From: a virus
DNA: 45,488 nucleotides
Virus record (IMG/VR): IMGVR_UViG_3300046462_000393
Span: 1-45,488 of that record
Strand: one strand, 5' to 3'
Below the pieces are notes generated by a model that saw only the letters and a list, made by a program, of their open reading frames with translations, did no database searches and was not told the DNA's origin. This document shows positions 3,113-45,488 of the stretch, one piece after another. The first letter of the stretch is position 1, and each line of letters begins with the position of its first letter. The translations under genes were made by a program, and so were the position numbers.

Positions 3113-3127
3113 TTAACGGAGTTTTAA
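3113..3127. promoter_or_regulatory. CtrA-like binding site between divergent genes
   Basis: An exact TTAA-N7-TTAA lies between the leftward gene starting at 3085 and the rightward small gene at 3172. TTAA-N7-TTAAC is the established binding consensus of CtrA, the alphaproteobacterial cell-cycle response regulator. The motif is nearly symmetric, so it could serve either direction. Confidence 0.6.
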
Positions 3128-7505: not shown

Positions 7506-7724
7506 ATGGCTATCCCCCGAATAGGCATGTCGGTTCCCGGCGCCACACGCCCCGGCGCTTCGGCCTTGATGGACGGCGCAGCGCCGAGCCTCAGCGATCA
7601 GGTCGCCGGCGAGACCGAGGAGCAGCGCAAGAAAAGACTGCAGGCCATGCAGGCGTCCCGGCAATTGCCGGTCGGCATGTCGTCTCTGGCTGACGGATAC
7701 GGCTCGGCACTGTCGGCGGTGTGA
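7506..7724 (+). CDS. Small hypothetical protein before portal
   Basis: A 72-residue protein starting immediately after the previous stop (TAA-ATG). It has a low-complexity N-terminus and a charged helix (AGETEEQRKKRLQAMQASRQ). Its stop overlaps the portal GTG start, so the two are coupled. Function unknown. Confidence 0.65.
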   Translation: MAIPRIGMSVPGATRPGASALMDGAAPSLSDQVAGETEEQRKKRLQAMQASRQLPVGMSSLADGYGSALSAV

Positions 7725-9478
7725 CCGCCATGGCGCTCGCCATCTACCGCGATCTCCCGATCAACGGCCCGCGCCTGATCTCCGATCGCGAGCATCAGAT
7801 CGTCCAGTTCATCAACAAATTATTCTCCGAGCTCACCACCTATCGCAACGTGTTCGCCGGCCAATGGGAGGAAGCCGCCGCGCTGATCCTGCCGACCTCG
7901 CGCAACACCTTCTTTGTCGGCAGCTACAATTTCCCCGGCGTCAAGAAAACCCAGCAGCAGGTCGACGCCACCGGCGCGCTCGCGCTGCATCAGTTCTGCG
8001 CCATCGCCGACTCGCTGATTACGCCGAAGAACCGGATGTGGCACGGCCTCGAGGCCGACGAATACGTCATGAAGGACCGCGCCACCCGGCAGTGGTTCGA
8101 CGACGTTCGCACCATTCTCTTTCGCTACAGAAGCCGGGCGTCGGCCAACTTCTACGGCCAGAACTTCTCCAACTGGCAATCGCTCGGCGCCTTCGGCAAC
8201 AGCGTGATGTTCACCGACGAGATCGATCGGCGCTGGACCGGCGGCCAGCCCGGACTTCGCTACCGCGCCGTGCCATTGGGCGAATGCTTCTTTGCCGAGA
8301 ACCATCAGGGCATGGTCACGACACTCGTGCGCTGGTTCCGCCTCACCGCGGCACAAGCCGAGGAAAAGTTCGGCGAGGAATGGCTGCCGCCGCAACTCAT
8401 GCCGGCATTGCAGCAGAACCTGCAGACGCCGTATCAGTTTCTGCACTGCGTCTATCCGCGCCACCAAGACGACTACGATCCGGAACGGCTCGATCACCGC
8501 GGCATGCCGTTCGTCTCCTATTACATGTCGATCGAGGGCCAGTGCCTTTGTGCCGAGGAAGGTGGCTTCCGCACCTTCCCCTACGCGGTGTCGCGCTACG
8601 ATCAAACCCCGGGCGAGCAATACGGCCGCGGACCGGCGCAGATCGCCTTGCCCGGATTGAAAACCTTGAACGCGGAAAAGACCGTGTTTCTGAAGCAAGG
8701 CCACCGCGCTTCCGATCCGGTGTACCTGTTGCCCGACGACGGCATCATCGACTTCAACTCGATCCCCGGCGCGCAGAATGCCGGCGGCGTCAACGCCGAC
8801 GGCAGGCCACTGGTGCACACGCTTCCTGTGGGCGACATCGGCATCTCCGAGAAGATGATGCTCGAGGAACGCGGCATCATCGAAAACATCTTCCTAACGC
8901 CGCTGTTCAAGACCTTGATGCAGAATCCGAACATGACGGCGACGCAAGTCACCGAGCTCATCAACGAGCGGGCCATGCTGGTCGCGCCCACATTGGGCCG
9001 CCAACACTCCGAGTTCGTCGGCAACGGCCTCGTCCCCCGGGAACTTAGTTTGCTCGCCCGCATGAACCTCTTGCCACCGATGCCGCCACGCTTGCGCGAG
9101 GCCGGCGGCAATTACGAAGTCACCGACACATCGCCGCTGGCCCTGCAAGCCCGCGCCTCGCAAGCTGCCGGTGGTCTCCGCACCCTCGACGTGGCGCATC
9201 AGATCGCCATCAACACTGGCGACTCATCGGTCTACGATCACTTCAACCTCGATACCATGATCCCGGCGATCGGCGAGATGAATGAGATGCCGACGGCATG
9301 GACCGCAACGCCGCAAGAGTTGAAGATGAAGCGGCAGAACCGCGCCCAAGCCGCGCAGCGCGAACAGCAGATCCAGGCGCTGCCGGCGCAAGCGGCGATG
9401 ATAAAAGCACAGGCCGCGATCGCGAAAGCGCCGGGCGTGGCAGGCCAGCAGCCGCAGCAGCAGCCGGTGCCGGCATGA
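7721..9478 (+). CDS. Portal (head-to-tail connecting) protein
   Basis: A 585-residue protein of the Head-tail_con family (T7 gp8-like), the dodecameric portal through which DNA enters and leaves the head. Typical features are the N-terminal region WEEAAALILPTSRNTF, the segment DSLITPKNRMWHGL, and the region around YGRGPAQIALPGLKTLN near residue 310. The C-terminus is Gln/Ala-rich (after residue 530), as is common for this family. It begins at GTG overlapping the upstream stop; the ATG at 7730 is an alternative. Confidence 0.9.
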   Translation: MTAMALAIYRDLPINGPRLISDREHQIVQFINKLFSELTTYRNVFAGQWEEAAALILPTSRNTFFVGSYNFPGVKKTQQQVDATGALALHQFCAIADSLITPKNRMWHGLEADEYVMKDRATRQWFDDVRTILFRYRSRASANFYGQNFSNWQSLGAFGNSVMFTDEIDRRWTGGQPGLRYRAVPLGECFFAENHQGMVTTLVRWFRLTAAQAEEKFGEEWLPPQLMPALQQNLQTPYQFLHCVYPRHQDDYDPERLDHRGMPFVSYYMSIEGQCLCAEEGGFRTFPYAVSRYDQTPGEQYGRGPAQIALPGLKTLNAEKTVFLKQGHRASDPVYLLPDDGIIDFNSIPGAQNAGGVNADGRPLVHTLPVGDIGISEKMMLEERGIIENIFLTPLFKTLMQNPNMTATQVTELINERAMLVAPTLGRQHSEFVGNGLVPRELSLLARMNLLPPMPPRLREAGGNYEVTDTSPLALQARASQAAGGLRTLDVAHQIAINTGDSSVYDHFNLDTMIPAIGEMNEMPTAWTATPQELKMKRQNRAQAAQREQQIQALPAQAAMIKAQAAIAKAPGVAGQQPQQQPVPA

Positions 9479-39028: not shown

Positions 39029-39552
39029 GGGCCATACGCCAGCGTCGGCGGTCCCTTGTGTTTCCAATCCCAGATGAACCAAGCGTGGTTGAAGCTAGGA
39101 CTACCCTTGCTACCTTCAAACCAGCGAATCCGCTTTGTCAGAACAACTTTCTTTGCAAATGCTGGCTGCCATTTAAAAAGATTCCTGCGAGTATTGGCGC
39201 TATCAAAATCTACTCGCAATAACATCGCGACCATTCCCTCATCAGGAGCAATTAAATTGATGGCGTGCGCGACAAACTTTTCGGCAAATCTATAAGGCGG
39301 ATTTGTTATGATTGCGTCTGAGCTGTGTGCATGAGATTCATTCAAGAAATTGACGCCGTGATCTATGTCTGATGCCACCACTTCAAATTGAGCCATAACA
39401 AGAGCGTTACCCATTTTGCCTCCACCGCAGGCCGGCTCCCAAATACGTTTAGGACGCCAAGGCAAGTGTGGTAATAGCGCCCAAGTCACCCAAGTAGGAG
39501 TTTCGTATAGATCGCGCTCCTTGCGCTCATATCCGGAATCGCGCTGGCTCAT
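39025..39552 (-). CDS. DNA methyltransferase, adenine-type (NPPY)
   Basis: A 175-residue enzyme. The SAM site is IWEPACGGGKMGNAL and the catalytic motif is NPPY in AIITNPPYRFAEKFV, typical of N6-adenine DNA methyltransferases; aromatic residues at DWKHKG follow late. It lacks a large recognition domain and its motif order differs from CcrM, so it should not be called CcrM. It may protect phage DNA from restriction or alter regulatory sites. Start at MSQRDSGYER with ATGA overlap. Confidence 0.8.
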   Translation of the reverse strand: MSQRDSGYERKERDLYETPTWVTWALLPHLPWRPKRIWEPACGGGKMGNALVMAQFEVVASDIDHGVNFLNESHAHSSDAIITNPPYRFAEKFVAHAINLIAPDEGMVAMLLRVDFDSANTRRNLFKWQPAFAKKVVLTKRIRWFEGSKGSPSFNHAWFIWDWKHKGPPTLAYGP

Positions 39553-40265
39553 ACGGCTACCGCCCCGCATTGGCTGCCGAGATGCTGGCCTAGCTTCACC
39601 GCGATCGCATAGTCATTGCTGCGCTTGATCGAGTCCGGACACATATACAGCCGCTCGGCCAGTTCCTCGCGCTTCATCACATAGGGAAAATTGCGAAGGC
39701 AGTGGAAACCGAAGTGCTTGCCAGCATCGACCGGGCCGGTGCATTCGAATGAGAACCGCAACGCCATGTCATCAGGCGGCCAGCGAAAGCCTTTAGTTTC
39801 AAGTCCATGCCGGTACATCCGGCAGAGCCAATCATCCTCGGGGTGATGGATCGGATAGGCCAGCTTGTTGCCGGCGAGGAATCGGGCCAGCCTGGTCGAC
39901 CGCAGCGAGAAGCCGCCGTTGCCGATATTGTAATGCGGATAACCCCATGGCGCTCCAATGTAGTCATAGGCCAAAAACTCATTGAACCATTGCTGCGGAT
40001 TGATGATCCACGAGTCCCATTGCATCACGAGGAAATGGCTGGTCTTTACGACTTGCGGCACGGTGTACCACAGCACCCGCATGGCATCGTCCAGGCTGTT
40101 GATGCGACACATCATGTTCGCCGCTTCACGCAAGATGGGCCGATCCGAGAATGTCATGACATCGCCAAACGTCGCGTGCTTGAGGCAAGTCTGCATCGCC
40201 AATGCCGATAGATCGTGGTAGGCACCATCGATGCAGACCAGCGTTACGTCAGGAAGCGTGAGCAT
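39549..40265 (-). CDS. DUF5672-like glycosyltransferase-type protein
   Basis: A 238-residue protein. FLVMQWDSWIINPQQW, YDYIGAPWGY and NIGNGGFSLRS match the DUF5672 pattern, a family often found with glycosyltransferases and predicted to bind a nucleotide sugar. With the GT9-like and methyltransferase genes downstream it forms a coupled three-gene set. Start at ATG 40265, overlapping the previous stop. The reaction is not established. Confidence 0.75.
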   Translation of the reverse strand: MLTLPDVTLVCIDGAYHDLSALAMQTCLKHATFGDVMTFSDRPILREAANMMCRINSLDDAMRVLWYTVPQVVKTSHFLVMQWDSWIINPQQWFNEFLAYDYIGAPWGYPHYNIGNGGFSLRSTRLARFLAGNKLAYPIHHPEDDWLCRMYRHGLETKGFRWPPDDMALRFSFECTGPVDAGKHFGFHCLRNFPYVMKREELAERLYMCPDSIKRSNDYAIAVKLGQHLGSQCGAVAV

Positions 40266-40543
40266 CAACTTAGGAGCAGAGTTTTAACGCCACCCTGCTT
40301 TTGCGCGCCATACTTGTGCTTCAACTCATGCACTTTCAGCACGTTACGCATGTTGGCGCAGATCGAATTGCCGACGCTCGCCGTGATTGCGCCTGATACT
40401 AAGTCGCCGGCGACAGCGATGCTTGCTTCCGCAAATTCAATGTCAGTATGGATTCCTCGATCGAAGTGAGCGGCACTCCGCGGTCTAGTTTTCTCGCTAT
40501 ACGACTCACCGTTCTTAGCAACGCTGCGTTCTTTCTTAGCCAT
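40265..40543 (-). CDS. Hypothetical early protein
   Basis: A 92-residue protein with AGAGG before the ATG. The N-terminus is Lys/Ser-rich, and the core (AEASIAVAGDLVSGAITASVGNSICANMRNVLKVHELKHKYG) resembles a small helical phage family with 'GxIxxxVANxxCxxxxxxLK...YG'. It shares about 145 bases with the ORF upstream in another frame. Function unknown. Confidence 0.6.
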   Translation of the reverse strand: MAKKERSVAKNGESYSEKTRPRSAAHFDRGIHTDIEFAEASIAVAGDLVSGAITASVGNSICANMRNVLKVHELKHKYGAQKQGGVKTLLLS

Positions 40544-42783: not shown

Positions 42784-42990
42784 ATGGCTTACGATCATCC
42801 CATGGCGCGCTGGGCCGAGAAAAAGAACATCAGCATCGCTGACCTAGCCAAGATTACCGATTGCTCCGAAGCGCATTTGCGGAATATCTTTGCGAGGCGT
42901 AAGGAGCCATCCTTGCCTCTTGCCAAGATGCTGTCCGATCTGTCCAAAGGCAAAGTGCCGATGCACGCCTTTCTGCGGGAGCGCGCATGA
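42784..42990 (+). CDS. Cro/CI-like XRE repressor
   Basis: A 68-residue single-domain HTH protein (ISIADLAKITDCSEAHLRNIFARRKEPS), typical of Cro/XRE regulators. It directly follows the divergent operators, its likely binding sites. With no peptidase domain, it is not a SOS-cleaved CI. It is the first gene of the rightward early transcript and overlaps the next by ATGA. Confidence 0.8.
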   Translation: MAYDHPMARWAEKKNISIADLAKITDCSEAHLRNIFARRKEPSLPLAKMLSDLSKGKVPMHAFLRERA

Positions 42991-43198: not shown

Positions 43199-43603
43199 AT
43201 GGCGTTGCGATTTGCCAATTTTGATCCGCCATTCGCCTGTCCTCCCGATATTGTCCTCAACCTGCCAGTGCCACCGTCGATCAACCGGACTCGGCGGATC
43301 GACTGGAAGCATCAGAAACGCTTGCGGGAATGGAAGAAGCTGGCTGACGGCTTCGTCATGCTCGACAAGCGGCGCGGGCTTAACCCGCCGCAATCCGAGC
43401 CGATCGAGCGGTTTGAGCTGCGGATCGAGATCAACGAAGCCATCACCAACGTCGATTTAGACAACACAATCAAGCACTTGATCGACTACCTGCGGCGCAT
43501 CGAAGTGATCGCCAACGATGCCCCGAAGAACATGCGGAAAATCACCGTGGAATGGGGCTCGCCGATCCGCGGCGTGCGGGTGACGATTGTGAGGCTGGCA
43601 TGA
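43199..43603 (+). CDS. RusA-like Holliday junction resolvase
   Basis: A 134-residue nuclease starting at MALRFAN behind GGAG. PPSINRTRRIDWKHQKRLREW, then DLDNTIKHLIDYL (D86, D88, N89) and IANDAPKN (D107) show the acidic cluster of RusA enzymes. It cuts four-way junctions made during phage recombination and replication. Overlaps the next gene by ATGA. Confidence 0.8.
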   Translation: MALRFANFDPPFACPPDIVLNLPVPPSINRTRRIDWKHQKRLREWKKLADGFVMLDKRRGLNPPQSEPIERFELRIEINEAITNVDLDNTIKHLIDYLRRIEVIANDAPKNMRKITVEWGSPIRGVRVTIVRLA

Positions 43604-43788
43604 CCGTATCGCTCAAATCTCAAATCGCTGAAGTCGAATACGAGCTGAAAATGCGGCGGCGCGTCTATCCGCATCAGGTTGCCATCCGCAAAATGAAGCA
43701 GGGCGAGGCCGACATGCGGATTGCACACATGACCGCCGTGCTCGAAACGCTGCGGAAAATGGAAGAGGAAGAAAGGCTGCTGGCATGA
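43600..43788 (+). CDS. Small coiled-coil protein
   Basis: A 62-residue charged helical protein (MTVSLKSQIAEVEYELKMRRRVYP...KMEEEERLLA), a pattern repeatedly seen in phage early regions. It is coupled by ATGA to both neighbours. Function unknown. Confidence 0.65.
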   Translation: MTVSLKSQIAEVEYELKMRRRVYPHQVAIRKMKQGEADMRIAHMTAVLETLRKMEEEERLLA

Positions 43789-44255
43789 CAACCAAGGCAG
43801 AACGATCGATCTGGCGGCAGGACATTCAGGCTATCCCAACGCTCCGAGATCTGTTCGCCTTGGGTCTATCGGCCGCCGAGATCGCCCGGCGGATGAATGA
43901 GAAATTCCGCATTCATCTGACCCGCAATGCCATCATCGGCAAGATCCAACGGGAAGGGCTGGAACGGCCGAAGCGGGAGCCGAGACCCAAGCCAGAGCCC
44001 AAGCCGAAGAAGATCAAAATTGTTTCACGTGAAACATTACCGCCCATTTCTCTATTAGAAGCCCTCCCATGCGTTTCGGCGACCGAGCTGCCTCCTGACC
44101 AGTCCGAGTGCGCCGTTTCGTTTCAGCGGCTACGGGACAGGCACTGCCGATGGCCGATCGAGCGACCTGGGGAGCCGATGATGTATTGCGGGGCGCAGAA
44201 GATCACCGGGTTTTATTGCCTGCGGCACGCTCGAATCCTGAGGCGCGGCAAATGA
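43785..44255 (+). CDS. gcrA: GcrA-like cell-cycle regulator
   Basis: A 156-residue protein. Residues 20-59 (LRDLFALGLSAAEIARRM...LTRNAIIGKIQREGL) match the GcrA HTH, including the RNAIIGK helix. The C-terminus (HCRWPI..., YCGAQ..., YCLRHAR; about 119-150) matches GcrA's CxWP/YCG/HAR region, which in the host contacts sigma-70. Host GcrA activates genes carrying CcrM-methylated GANTC sites. The linker is Pro/Lys-rich. A perfect parS lies in the codons for residues 79-84. Coupled to both neighbours by ATGA. Confidence 0.85.
   Translation: MTTKAERSIWRQDIQAIPTLRDLFALGLSAAEIARRMNEKFRIHLTRNAIIGKIQREGLERPKREPRPKPEPKPKKIKIVSRETLPPISLLEALPCVSATELPPDQSECAVSFQRLRDRHCRWPIERPGEPMMYCGAQKITGFYCLRHARILRRGK
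44021..44036. promoter_or_regulatory. parS: Chromosomal-type parS site
   Basis: TGTTTCACGTGAAACA is a perfect 16-bp palindrome and an exact match to the consensus site loaded by chromosomal ParB. It lies in the linker-coding part of the GcrA-like gene (residues I-V-S-R-E-T). No ParB or ParA gene is present in the window, so host ParB is the likely partner. Confidence 0.85.
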
Positions 44256-44443
44256 GACCATCACTGTGGACCGAGCAGCAGGCTTACGAGCACTTGCTTG
44301 AGACGTTCAACATCAACTGCCGGATGTTTCCCGACATCATGGACCGCTATGTGGCGCAGCTCGAAGCGGACGATCGAAAGACAAACATCGAAGTCATGCG
44401 CCGGGCTCTACGGGAAACGCTCAAAGCACGATGGCCGAGCTGA
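44252..44443 (+). CDS. Small hypothetical early protein
   Basis: A 63-residue helical protein (MRPSLWTEQQAYEHLLETFNINCRMF...) starting at the ATGA overlap with the GcrA-like gene. No family recognised. It closes the coupled run that starts with the repressor. Confidence 0.6.
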   Translation: MRPSLWTEQQAYEHLLETFNINCRMFPDIMDRYVAQLEADDRKTNIEVMRRALRETLKARWPS

Positions 44444-44852: not shown

Positions 44853-45020
44853 ATGCAGAAAGAGAAGTTAAGAGAAGCACTTACTGAATGTGAATTGGCT
44901 TATCGTTTCTCTCCAAATTCTTACACCGCGAGCGCGTTTTCGGCAGTCATCAGCGCGCTTGATGAAACCATCACGATCGATTGGAAGTTAGAATACCTCG
45001 ATTGGATCGCATCATGTTGA
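44853..45020 (+). CDS. Small hypothetical protein
   Basis: A 55-residue protein starting at MQKEKLREAL behind AGAGGGGG. It is helical and acidic (ALTECELAYRFSPNSYTASAF...). It overlaps the next gene by seven bases. The frame extends upstream into the structured region, but this start has the ribosome site. Function unknown. Confidence 0.6.
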   Translation: MQKEKLREALTECELAYRFSPNSYTASAFSAVISALDETITIDWKLEYLDWIASC

Positions 45021-45448
45021 GCCTGTTCGATGATTGGCCGCATGACTGCGATGAGCTATTTTGGCGCGCGTATCCGAGAAAAGTCGCCAAATTCGAGGCC
45101 ATGAAATCGCTCGCGAAAATTCGCGCCAAGGGCAATGTCAGGTTCACCGACCTGATGGCGGCGCTTGAGCGATACAAGGCATGGCTCGGGGAGGCCAATC
45201 CGCCGAAGGTCTGGCGCCCGGAACCAAAGCACGCCGCGACGTGGCTCAACTCGGGGAGCTGGAACGACGAGTTGCCCACAGCAAAACGCAGCATCACGGT
45301 GCGAAGCTTCGACGATGCGCGGCTTAAGCAGCAATTCGAGGAACGCGCGGCCTTCGAGGCCGAGCAGGCGGCACGCAAGAACCGGCCGACCTACGATGAA
45401 ATGCGCCGCAAGTACGATGTGAATGGCAAGAAGTGGGGGATCGGCTGA
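45014..45448 (+). CDS. Putative replication protein (organiser C-terminal type)
   Basis: A 144-residue protein starting at MLSLFDDWPHD. The pattern FWRAYPRKVAKFEAMKSL followed by ALERYKAWL and KHAATWLNSGSWNDEL is typical of the C-terminal part of phage replication-initiation/helicase-loader proteins. The N-terminal origin-binding domain of longer members is missing. Overlaps the junction gene by ATGA. Role inferred. Confidence 0.65.
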   Translation: MLSLFDDWPHDCDELFWRAYPRKVAKFEAMKSLAKIRAKGNVRFTDLMAALERYKAWLGEANPPKVWRPEPKHAATWLNSGSWNDELPTAKRSITVRSFDDARLKQQFEERAAFEAEQAARKNRPTYDEMRRKYDVNGKKWGIG

Positions 45449-45488
45449 TGGCGGCCAAACCAGTGTTTGATTTTGTCATCAAGGATGC
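45448..45488 (+). CDS. Small hypothetical protein, 5' part (continues at position 1)
   Basis: The start (MAAKPVFDFVIKDA) of the 45-residue protein completed at 1-116. ATG overlaps the previous stop. Truncated only because the circular map is opened here. Confidence 0.6.
   Translation, partial: MAAKPVFDFVIKD
45470..45488. repeat. Terminal direct repeat, right copy
   Basis: Identical to bases 1-19; see the left copy. It marks the circular join. Confidence 0.9.

Follow-up and report, generated by a model that had tools for sequence, protein, structure and literature searches.

A chromosomal-type parS site within the gcrA-like gene of a phage carrying CtrA boxes, and its possible use of the host ParB

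The stretch of DNA analysed here, referred to as the window, is the entire IMG/VR virus record IMGVR_UViG_3300046462_000393 (45,488 nt). Near its end lies a plus-strand block of early-type genes (Table 1), one of which encodes a protein of the GcrA family, scoring 72.8 bits with the corresponding Pfam profile against a cut-off of 26.9. Within this reading frame, the sequence TGTTTCACGTGAAACA at 44021-44036 is a perfect chromosomal-type parS, as had been proposed in the first-pass annotation: it matches the 16-bp consensus (PMC7022226; core GTTTCACGTGAAAC) exactly on both strands. It is also the sole site of its kind, as no second match with up to 3 mismatches is found on either strand of the window, where shuffled sequence gives a mean of 0.14 such matches. 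Furthermore, when the half-site TGTTTCAC was permuted to generate 840 palindromes, only parS scored above 14/16 in the window. By simple arithmetic, an exact 16-mer is expected approximately 1e-5 times per 45 kb. The predicted single-strand structure around the site consists of the hairpin of the palindrome alone (z -1.1).

Table 1. Coordinates of parS, the CtrA boxes and selected genes in the window.
Feature	Position	Strand	Evidence
parS (ParB loading site) TGTTTCACGTGAAACA	44021-44036		exact consensus match
GcrA-like cell-cycle regulator gene, 156 aa, parS in variable linker	43785-44255	+	Pfam PF07750 E 5e-20; alignment
Small Cro/C1-type HTH protein, head of + strand early-type block	42784-42990	+	Pfam HTH_3 E 7.5e-5; PHROG repressor E 7e-4
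RusA-like Holliday junction resolvase	43199-43603	+	PHROG 34 E 2e-7
62-aa ORF, overlaps gcrA start	43600-43788	+	ORF reading
63-aa ORF, overlaps gcrA stop	44252-44443	+	ORF reading
Replication-initiation-like protein, close downstream of parS/gcrA	44981-45448	+	PHROG 270 E 1.3e-12
Portal/head-tail connector gene, query for relatives	7721-9478	+	PHROG 332 E 3e-101
CtrA box TTAA-N7-TTAA, 23 bp upstream of minus-strand ORF 35001-35324	35347-35361		motif scan
CtrA box TTAA-N7-TTAA, 19 bp upstream of minus-strand ORF 35347-35544	35563-35577		motif scan
CtrA box TTAA-N7-TTAA, 17 bp upstream of minus-strand ORF 35546-35839	35856-35870		motif scan
CtrA box TTAA-N7-TTAA, 16 bp upstream of minus-strand ORF 36161-36364	36380-36394		motif scan
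CtrA box TTAA-N7-TTAA, 21 bp upstream of minus-strand ORF 36762-37031	37052-37066		motif scan
Sixth exact CtrA box, no identified gene start attached	3113-3127		motif scan

The parS site is translated in the register V-S-R-E-T. In an alignment of phage GcrA proteins, a helix-turn-helix at the N-terminus and the CRWP/C..H part at the C-terminus are shared, and the linker that holds parS differs or is missing, so that the earlier placement of the site in a low-constraint part of the gene is upheld; VSRET was not found in the aligned relatives. The codons that spell the site, ATT GTT TCA CGT GAA ACA, are little used by this GC3-rich phage. The joint synonymous probability of the five VSRET codons is approximately 6e-5, and the six-codon window falls in the lowest 0.4% of 5,519 windows from ten long genes, a rarity that is equalled by 10 other six-codon windows of the gcrA ORF. 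Since VSRET is not conserved and its codons are rare, the palindrome is explained neither by protein constraint nor by codon habit. No close relatives of this GcrA protein were found in viral contigs or phage records, and the parS locus has no DNA relatives among phages.

Relatives of the phage were defined by the portal protein, which found 25 virus records with 52-81% identity in the best segment. None of the 25 carries an exact parS. In one record, G005, the complete 14-bp core nevertheless occurs twice, each time in the VSRET register: once in the C-terminal tail of the small terminase gene and once in a different early-type gene; two-mismatch sites are present in G003 and G015. The reversed palindrome, serving as a control, has no site in any of these records. 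Over 447 kb of relatives, parS occurs twice with at most 1 mismatch and four times with at most 2, which ranks it first of the 840 permuted palindromes (means of 0.006 and 0.05, respectively). The nearest complete relatives, G001, G008 and G024, have no parS within 2 mismatches, and the site is therefore optional in this group of phages. The occurrence of parS-type sites in differing, weakly constrained parts of proteins argues for selection on the DNA. It had been suggested that a DNA function would be contradicted by relatives in which the peptide is conserved and the palindrome is not; the opposite was found, as the GcrA relatives lack VSRET and G005 has parS-core sites elsewhere. Judged from these comparisons, the site is selected as DNA and not as protein sequence.

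A wider portal search of 84,980 genomes returned no match with the single sequence and, with an alignment, two MAG contigs that were uninformative about the host. The portal relatives in plasmids are distant, at 20.8-27.4% identity among the 15 matches listed. Sequences resembling parS also occur in the C-terminal tails of the small terminases of relatives, where they read KVSRETKV, KVSHETKV and AVPHETIE (L191, at 9251 and 13779; L150, at 1501; L135, at 7388).

The tie of parS to gcrA itself appears to be incidental, because 11 other GcrA-encoding phage records lack parS, and a general association between the two was rejected on this basis. In an unrelated phage record, L058, a parS site at 894-909 lies approximately 600 bp from a GcrA gene (1447-2043).

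Phage-plasmids of the P1 and mycobacteriophage RedRock type encode their own parABS and are inherited extrachromosomally through ParB-parS. Unlike these, the present record shows no match to the ParB_N domain (PF02195) at E <= 1 anywhere in its length, and its site has the chromosomal consensus; a ParA domain is likewise absent among the approximately 27 window ORFs scanned with Pfam. The initial impression that no phage parA or parB is visible thus holds for ParB_N over the whole record and for ParA among the scanned ORFs. By the PF02195 search, the phage is like elements that borrow ParB from another replicon in that it carries parS with no ParB of its own. In addition, there is no match to the tyrosine integrase domain (PF00589) at E <= 1 in the record, which by this search sets it apart from integrating temperate phages and fits a non-integrating phage. 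The record ends have 19 bp in common, and a short ORF from 45449 (starting MAAKPVFDFVIKDAEAQLRR) continues over them, with 45449-45488 joined to 20 onwards; the genome is therefore circularly closed or permuted. Elsewhere in the window, a minus-strand block at 38189-40268 contains sugar-transferase-like genes, one with a DUF5672 match (E 1e-18), and a weak match to a Dam-like methylase at 39028-39570.

A second feature of the window concerns the host cell cycle. Six exact CtrA boxes, TTAA-N7-TTAA, are present where 0.10 would be expected, and all other spacings between 0 and 20 give none in the window. Five of them are clustered at 35.3-37.1 kb, 16-23 bp upstream of the starts of consecutive small minus-strand ORFs, where box and preceding gene often have the stop codon in common, with a Shine-Dalgarno sequence following. 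CtrA has been found to bind such sites in unrelated alphaproteobacterial phages, for which a deferment of lysis was proposed, and phiCbK is noted to encode GcrA (PMC9437464). The present phage resembles them both in the clustering of TTAA-N7-TTAA at gene starts and in its homologue of a cell-cycle regulator. A promoter repeat of the phage itself would be an alternative identity for the boxes, but their invariable spacing of 7 speaks in favour of CtrA. Furthermore, GANTC, the methylation target of CcrM, is depleted over the whole window (88 occurrences against 214 expected from shuffles). Together with GcrA and the CtrA boxes, this depletion suggests that the host is probably an alphaproteobacterium, and the boxes and the GcrA gene indicate a phage that is wired into the cell cycle of its host.

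The CtrA boxes are absent from the ten relatives tested and therefore appear to be particular to this phage; the region that contains them has no DNA relatives among phages. The CtrA-controlled phage vB_BsubS-Delta, unlike the present one, has no parS. A general association between parS and CtrA boxes was rejected, as parS phages taken as a set show no excess of CtrA boxes, and Delta and the parts of DSS3P8 compared also spoke against it.

The parS site recurs widely among other phages. In viral contigs, the exact site was found in at least 120 stretches, compared with 1 for the reversed palindrome and 9 for one other permutation, both matched in composition; several of the IMG/VR contigs contain three to five sites and may be host origin regions. 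Among phage records, the exact site is present in 286 of 50,697, a count that includes redundant isolates and some contigs named 'Listeria phage LM 4-...', which lack annotation and are possibly host contamination, whereas the same two control palindromes gave 0 and 0 at an equal threshold. None of 50 parS-bearing virus records reaches the cut-off of the ParB family model TIGR00180, and 45 of the 50 have no match to it at all, albeit that fragmentary records may miss a ParB gene. Host contamination, as judged by co-carriage of ParB, was thus mostly rejected as the source of viral parS, with some contaminated deposits and fragments remaining.

The phages concerned are diverse. Exact sites are present in each of the phi29-like Bacillus phages B103 (within morphogenesis gene 15), Goe1 and BSP11, in Listeria P100, in Microbacterium Quhwah and in the Spiroplasma microvirus SpV4, as well as between two genes in Arthrobacter Joann and between the portal and protease genes of Butyrivibrio phage Bo-Finn. 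Gordonia Woes has two sites. The T5-like Vibrio phi 3 (KP280063.1) has an exact and a one-mismatch site (821 and 2934) in its terminal repeat, adjoining the A1/A2 genes, and Roseobacter phage DSS3P8 (KT870145.1) has three exact sites (841, 141133 and 143177) in a span of approximately 6 kb over the genome start. Inoviruses are an episomal kind of phage, and in the 5.9-kb inovirus bajarodino virus 6 (PQ006149.1) there are six exact sites, at 635, 662, 1414, 2857, 4096 and 5628, which lie in gaps between annotated genes apart from one at a gene start. Exact sites are thus far commoner than chance would give, in numerous phages unrelated to one another, and it appears that the chromosome-sorting machinery of the host is borrowed by phages. 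However, many parS-bearing phages, such as Listeria P100, the Arthrobacter phages and the phi29-like phages, are regarded as virulent, and long-term partition therefore cannot be the general purpose of phage parS.

ParB is established to nucleate at parS, to close as a CTP-dependent clamp and to slide onto neighbouring DNA. In the reading that we favour, with little more than even confidence, the phage would have acquired a host-type parS that selection on the DNA maintains; host ParB would nucleate there, close and slide over the neighbouring early region; and the coated genome would be handled by the ParA/SMC segregation machinery of the host. A non-integrated phage genome could thereby be kept in the cell, positioned there and inherited by the daughter cells, possibly with lysis deferred: to judge from the CtrA boxes and the GcrA homologue, the host cell cycle would gate phage genes, and parS would serve retention during the deferred infection. 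The steps of this reading differ in strength. The proposal in the first-pass annotation that host ParB could load here is partly substantiated, in that the site appears to be a genuine, selected one of chromosomal type, the phage lacks a ParB_N domain of its own, and the evident candidate to bind the site is host ParB; by its sequence, the site is likely to be bound by host ParB. A role in partition is suggested by analogy with phi29 and SGI1, and lysis may be deferred in this phage. Counting against a partition function is the presence of a single parS site.

Both analogues are instructive. In phi29, as described in PMC9437464 with reference to Meijer et al. 2005, Spo0A sites suspend lysis and the host Spo0J (ParB) captures the genome. 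The present phage would likewise be a non-integrating one that combines sites for a host master regulator with the use of host ParB, a likeness that we infer from sequence. It differs in that CtrA boxes and ParB would make up the pair, that the phage encodes GcrA and presumably infects an alphaproteobacterium, and that no spores are involved. The genomic island SGI1, in turn, relies for its stability on parS sites stolen from IncC plasmids (PMC10954446). Like SGI1, the phage is a mobile element without ParB that carries the parS of another replicon, whose ParAB in the case of SGI1 provides stability; the sites of SGI1 are borrowed from a helper plasmid, whereas that of the phage is chromosomal.

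The best surviving alternative, although an unlikely one, is that parS has no role in inheritance and acts as a bait, drawing ParB, with SMC or ParA, so as to upset host segregation or the cell cycle, or that it folds or positions phage DNA for replication or packaging. The virulent, never-segregating phages that carry parS (Listeria P100, Arthrobacter Joann and the phi29-like B103) are consistent with such a function, as are the near-parS sequence in the small terminase subunit gene of relatives and the observation that the borrowed sites of SGI1 also expel the helper plasmid (PMC10954446). Before phage replication, however, a single site would titrate few ParB clamps relative to the sites of the host itself.

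Also unlikely, and ranking just behind, is the possibility that ParB spreading from parS lowers expression of the early operon (HTH, rusA, gcrA and the replication gene), with the phage either tolerating a silencing by its host or itself using the effect to delay lysis. The location of parS inside the early/replication block would suit this effect, as would the clustering of the DSS3P8 sites in the genome-end region and the terminal-repeat location in Vibrio phi 3. Spreading of Caulobacter ParB is documented (PMC8367383), and excess ParB is reported to repress promoters adjacent to parS3/parS4 (PMC5521831). Yet a purely harmful parS should vanish, since one synonymous change breaks the palindrome, and phages show enrichment of the site and not depletion. 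Moreover, the sites of other phages also lie in structural regions, as in Bo-Finn and B103.

That the palindrome arose in the linker-coding sequence by coincidence is very improbable. Some of the closest complete relatives lack the site, it occurs as a single copy in coding sequence, and its codons are no rarer than those of the ten other windows of the gene; all of this would accord with coincidence. However, the expectation per 45 kb is minute, sites with the parS core appear at new places in a relative, and enrichment in unrelated phages contrasts with counts of 0, 0, 1 and 9 for matched control palindromes. A chance origin was rejected on these controls, and the earlier judgement that a random match is most improbable stands. 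Least credible of all is an operator for a phage regulator or a non-ParB host factor that merely resembles parS: small HTH proteins are indeed encoded close by, but the identical 16-mer is found in phages of Firmicutes, Actinobacteria, Vibrio and roseobacters, in microviruses and in an inovirus, which have no such regulator in common.

That host ParB segregates or retains the non-integrated genome thus remains the preferred reading, and it may be extended, more tentatively and with rather less than even confidence, in two directions. Borrowed chromosomal centromeres might be a widespread and convergent trait, which large tailed phages would share with microviruses and 6-kb inoviruses; and in the present phage, parS might form a two-part module with the CtrA boxes and the GcrA homologue, in which CtrA restrains lysis and host ParB segregates the waiting genome, as an alphaproteobacterial counterpart of Spo0A and Spo0J in phi29. 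That a mobile element can borrow the ParB of another replicon is already known; the surprise lies in how broadly parS is spread over phages and in its pairing, in this one, with CtrA boxes. Among the open-access papers searched, none surveyed phages for chromosomal parS sites.

The study on lytic deferment states explicitly that the upkeep of non-integrating phage DNA in hosts that divide slowly or not at all has yet to be explained (PMC9437464). It left open how the phage genome survives while lysis is deferred and reported that such phages have no plasmid-associated genes; parS is one candidate for the missing means. A borrowed centromere of 16 bp costs a phage almost nothing, and because it needs no genes it is missed by annotation pipelines. 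The presence of parS in 286 phage records, against none for the controls, suggests that ParB, and perhaps SMC, forms a common and testable interface between phages and their hosts, for which parS provides a simple genomic marker.
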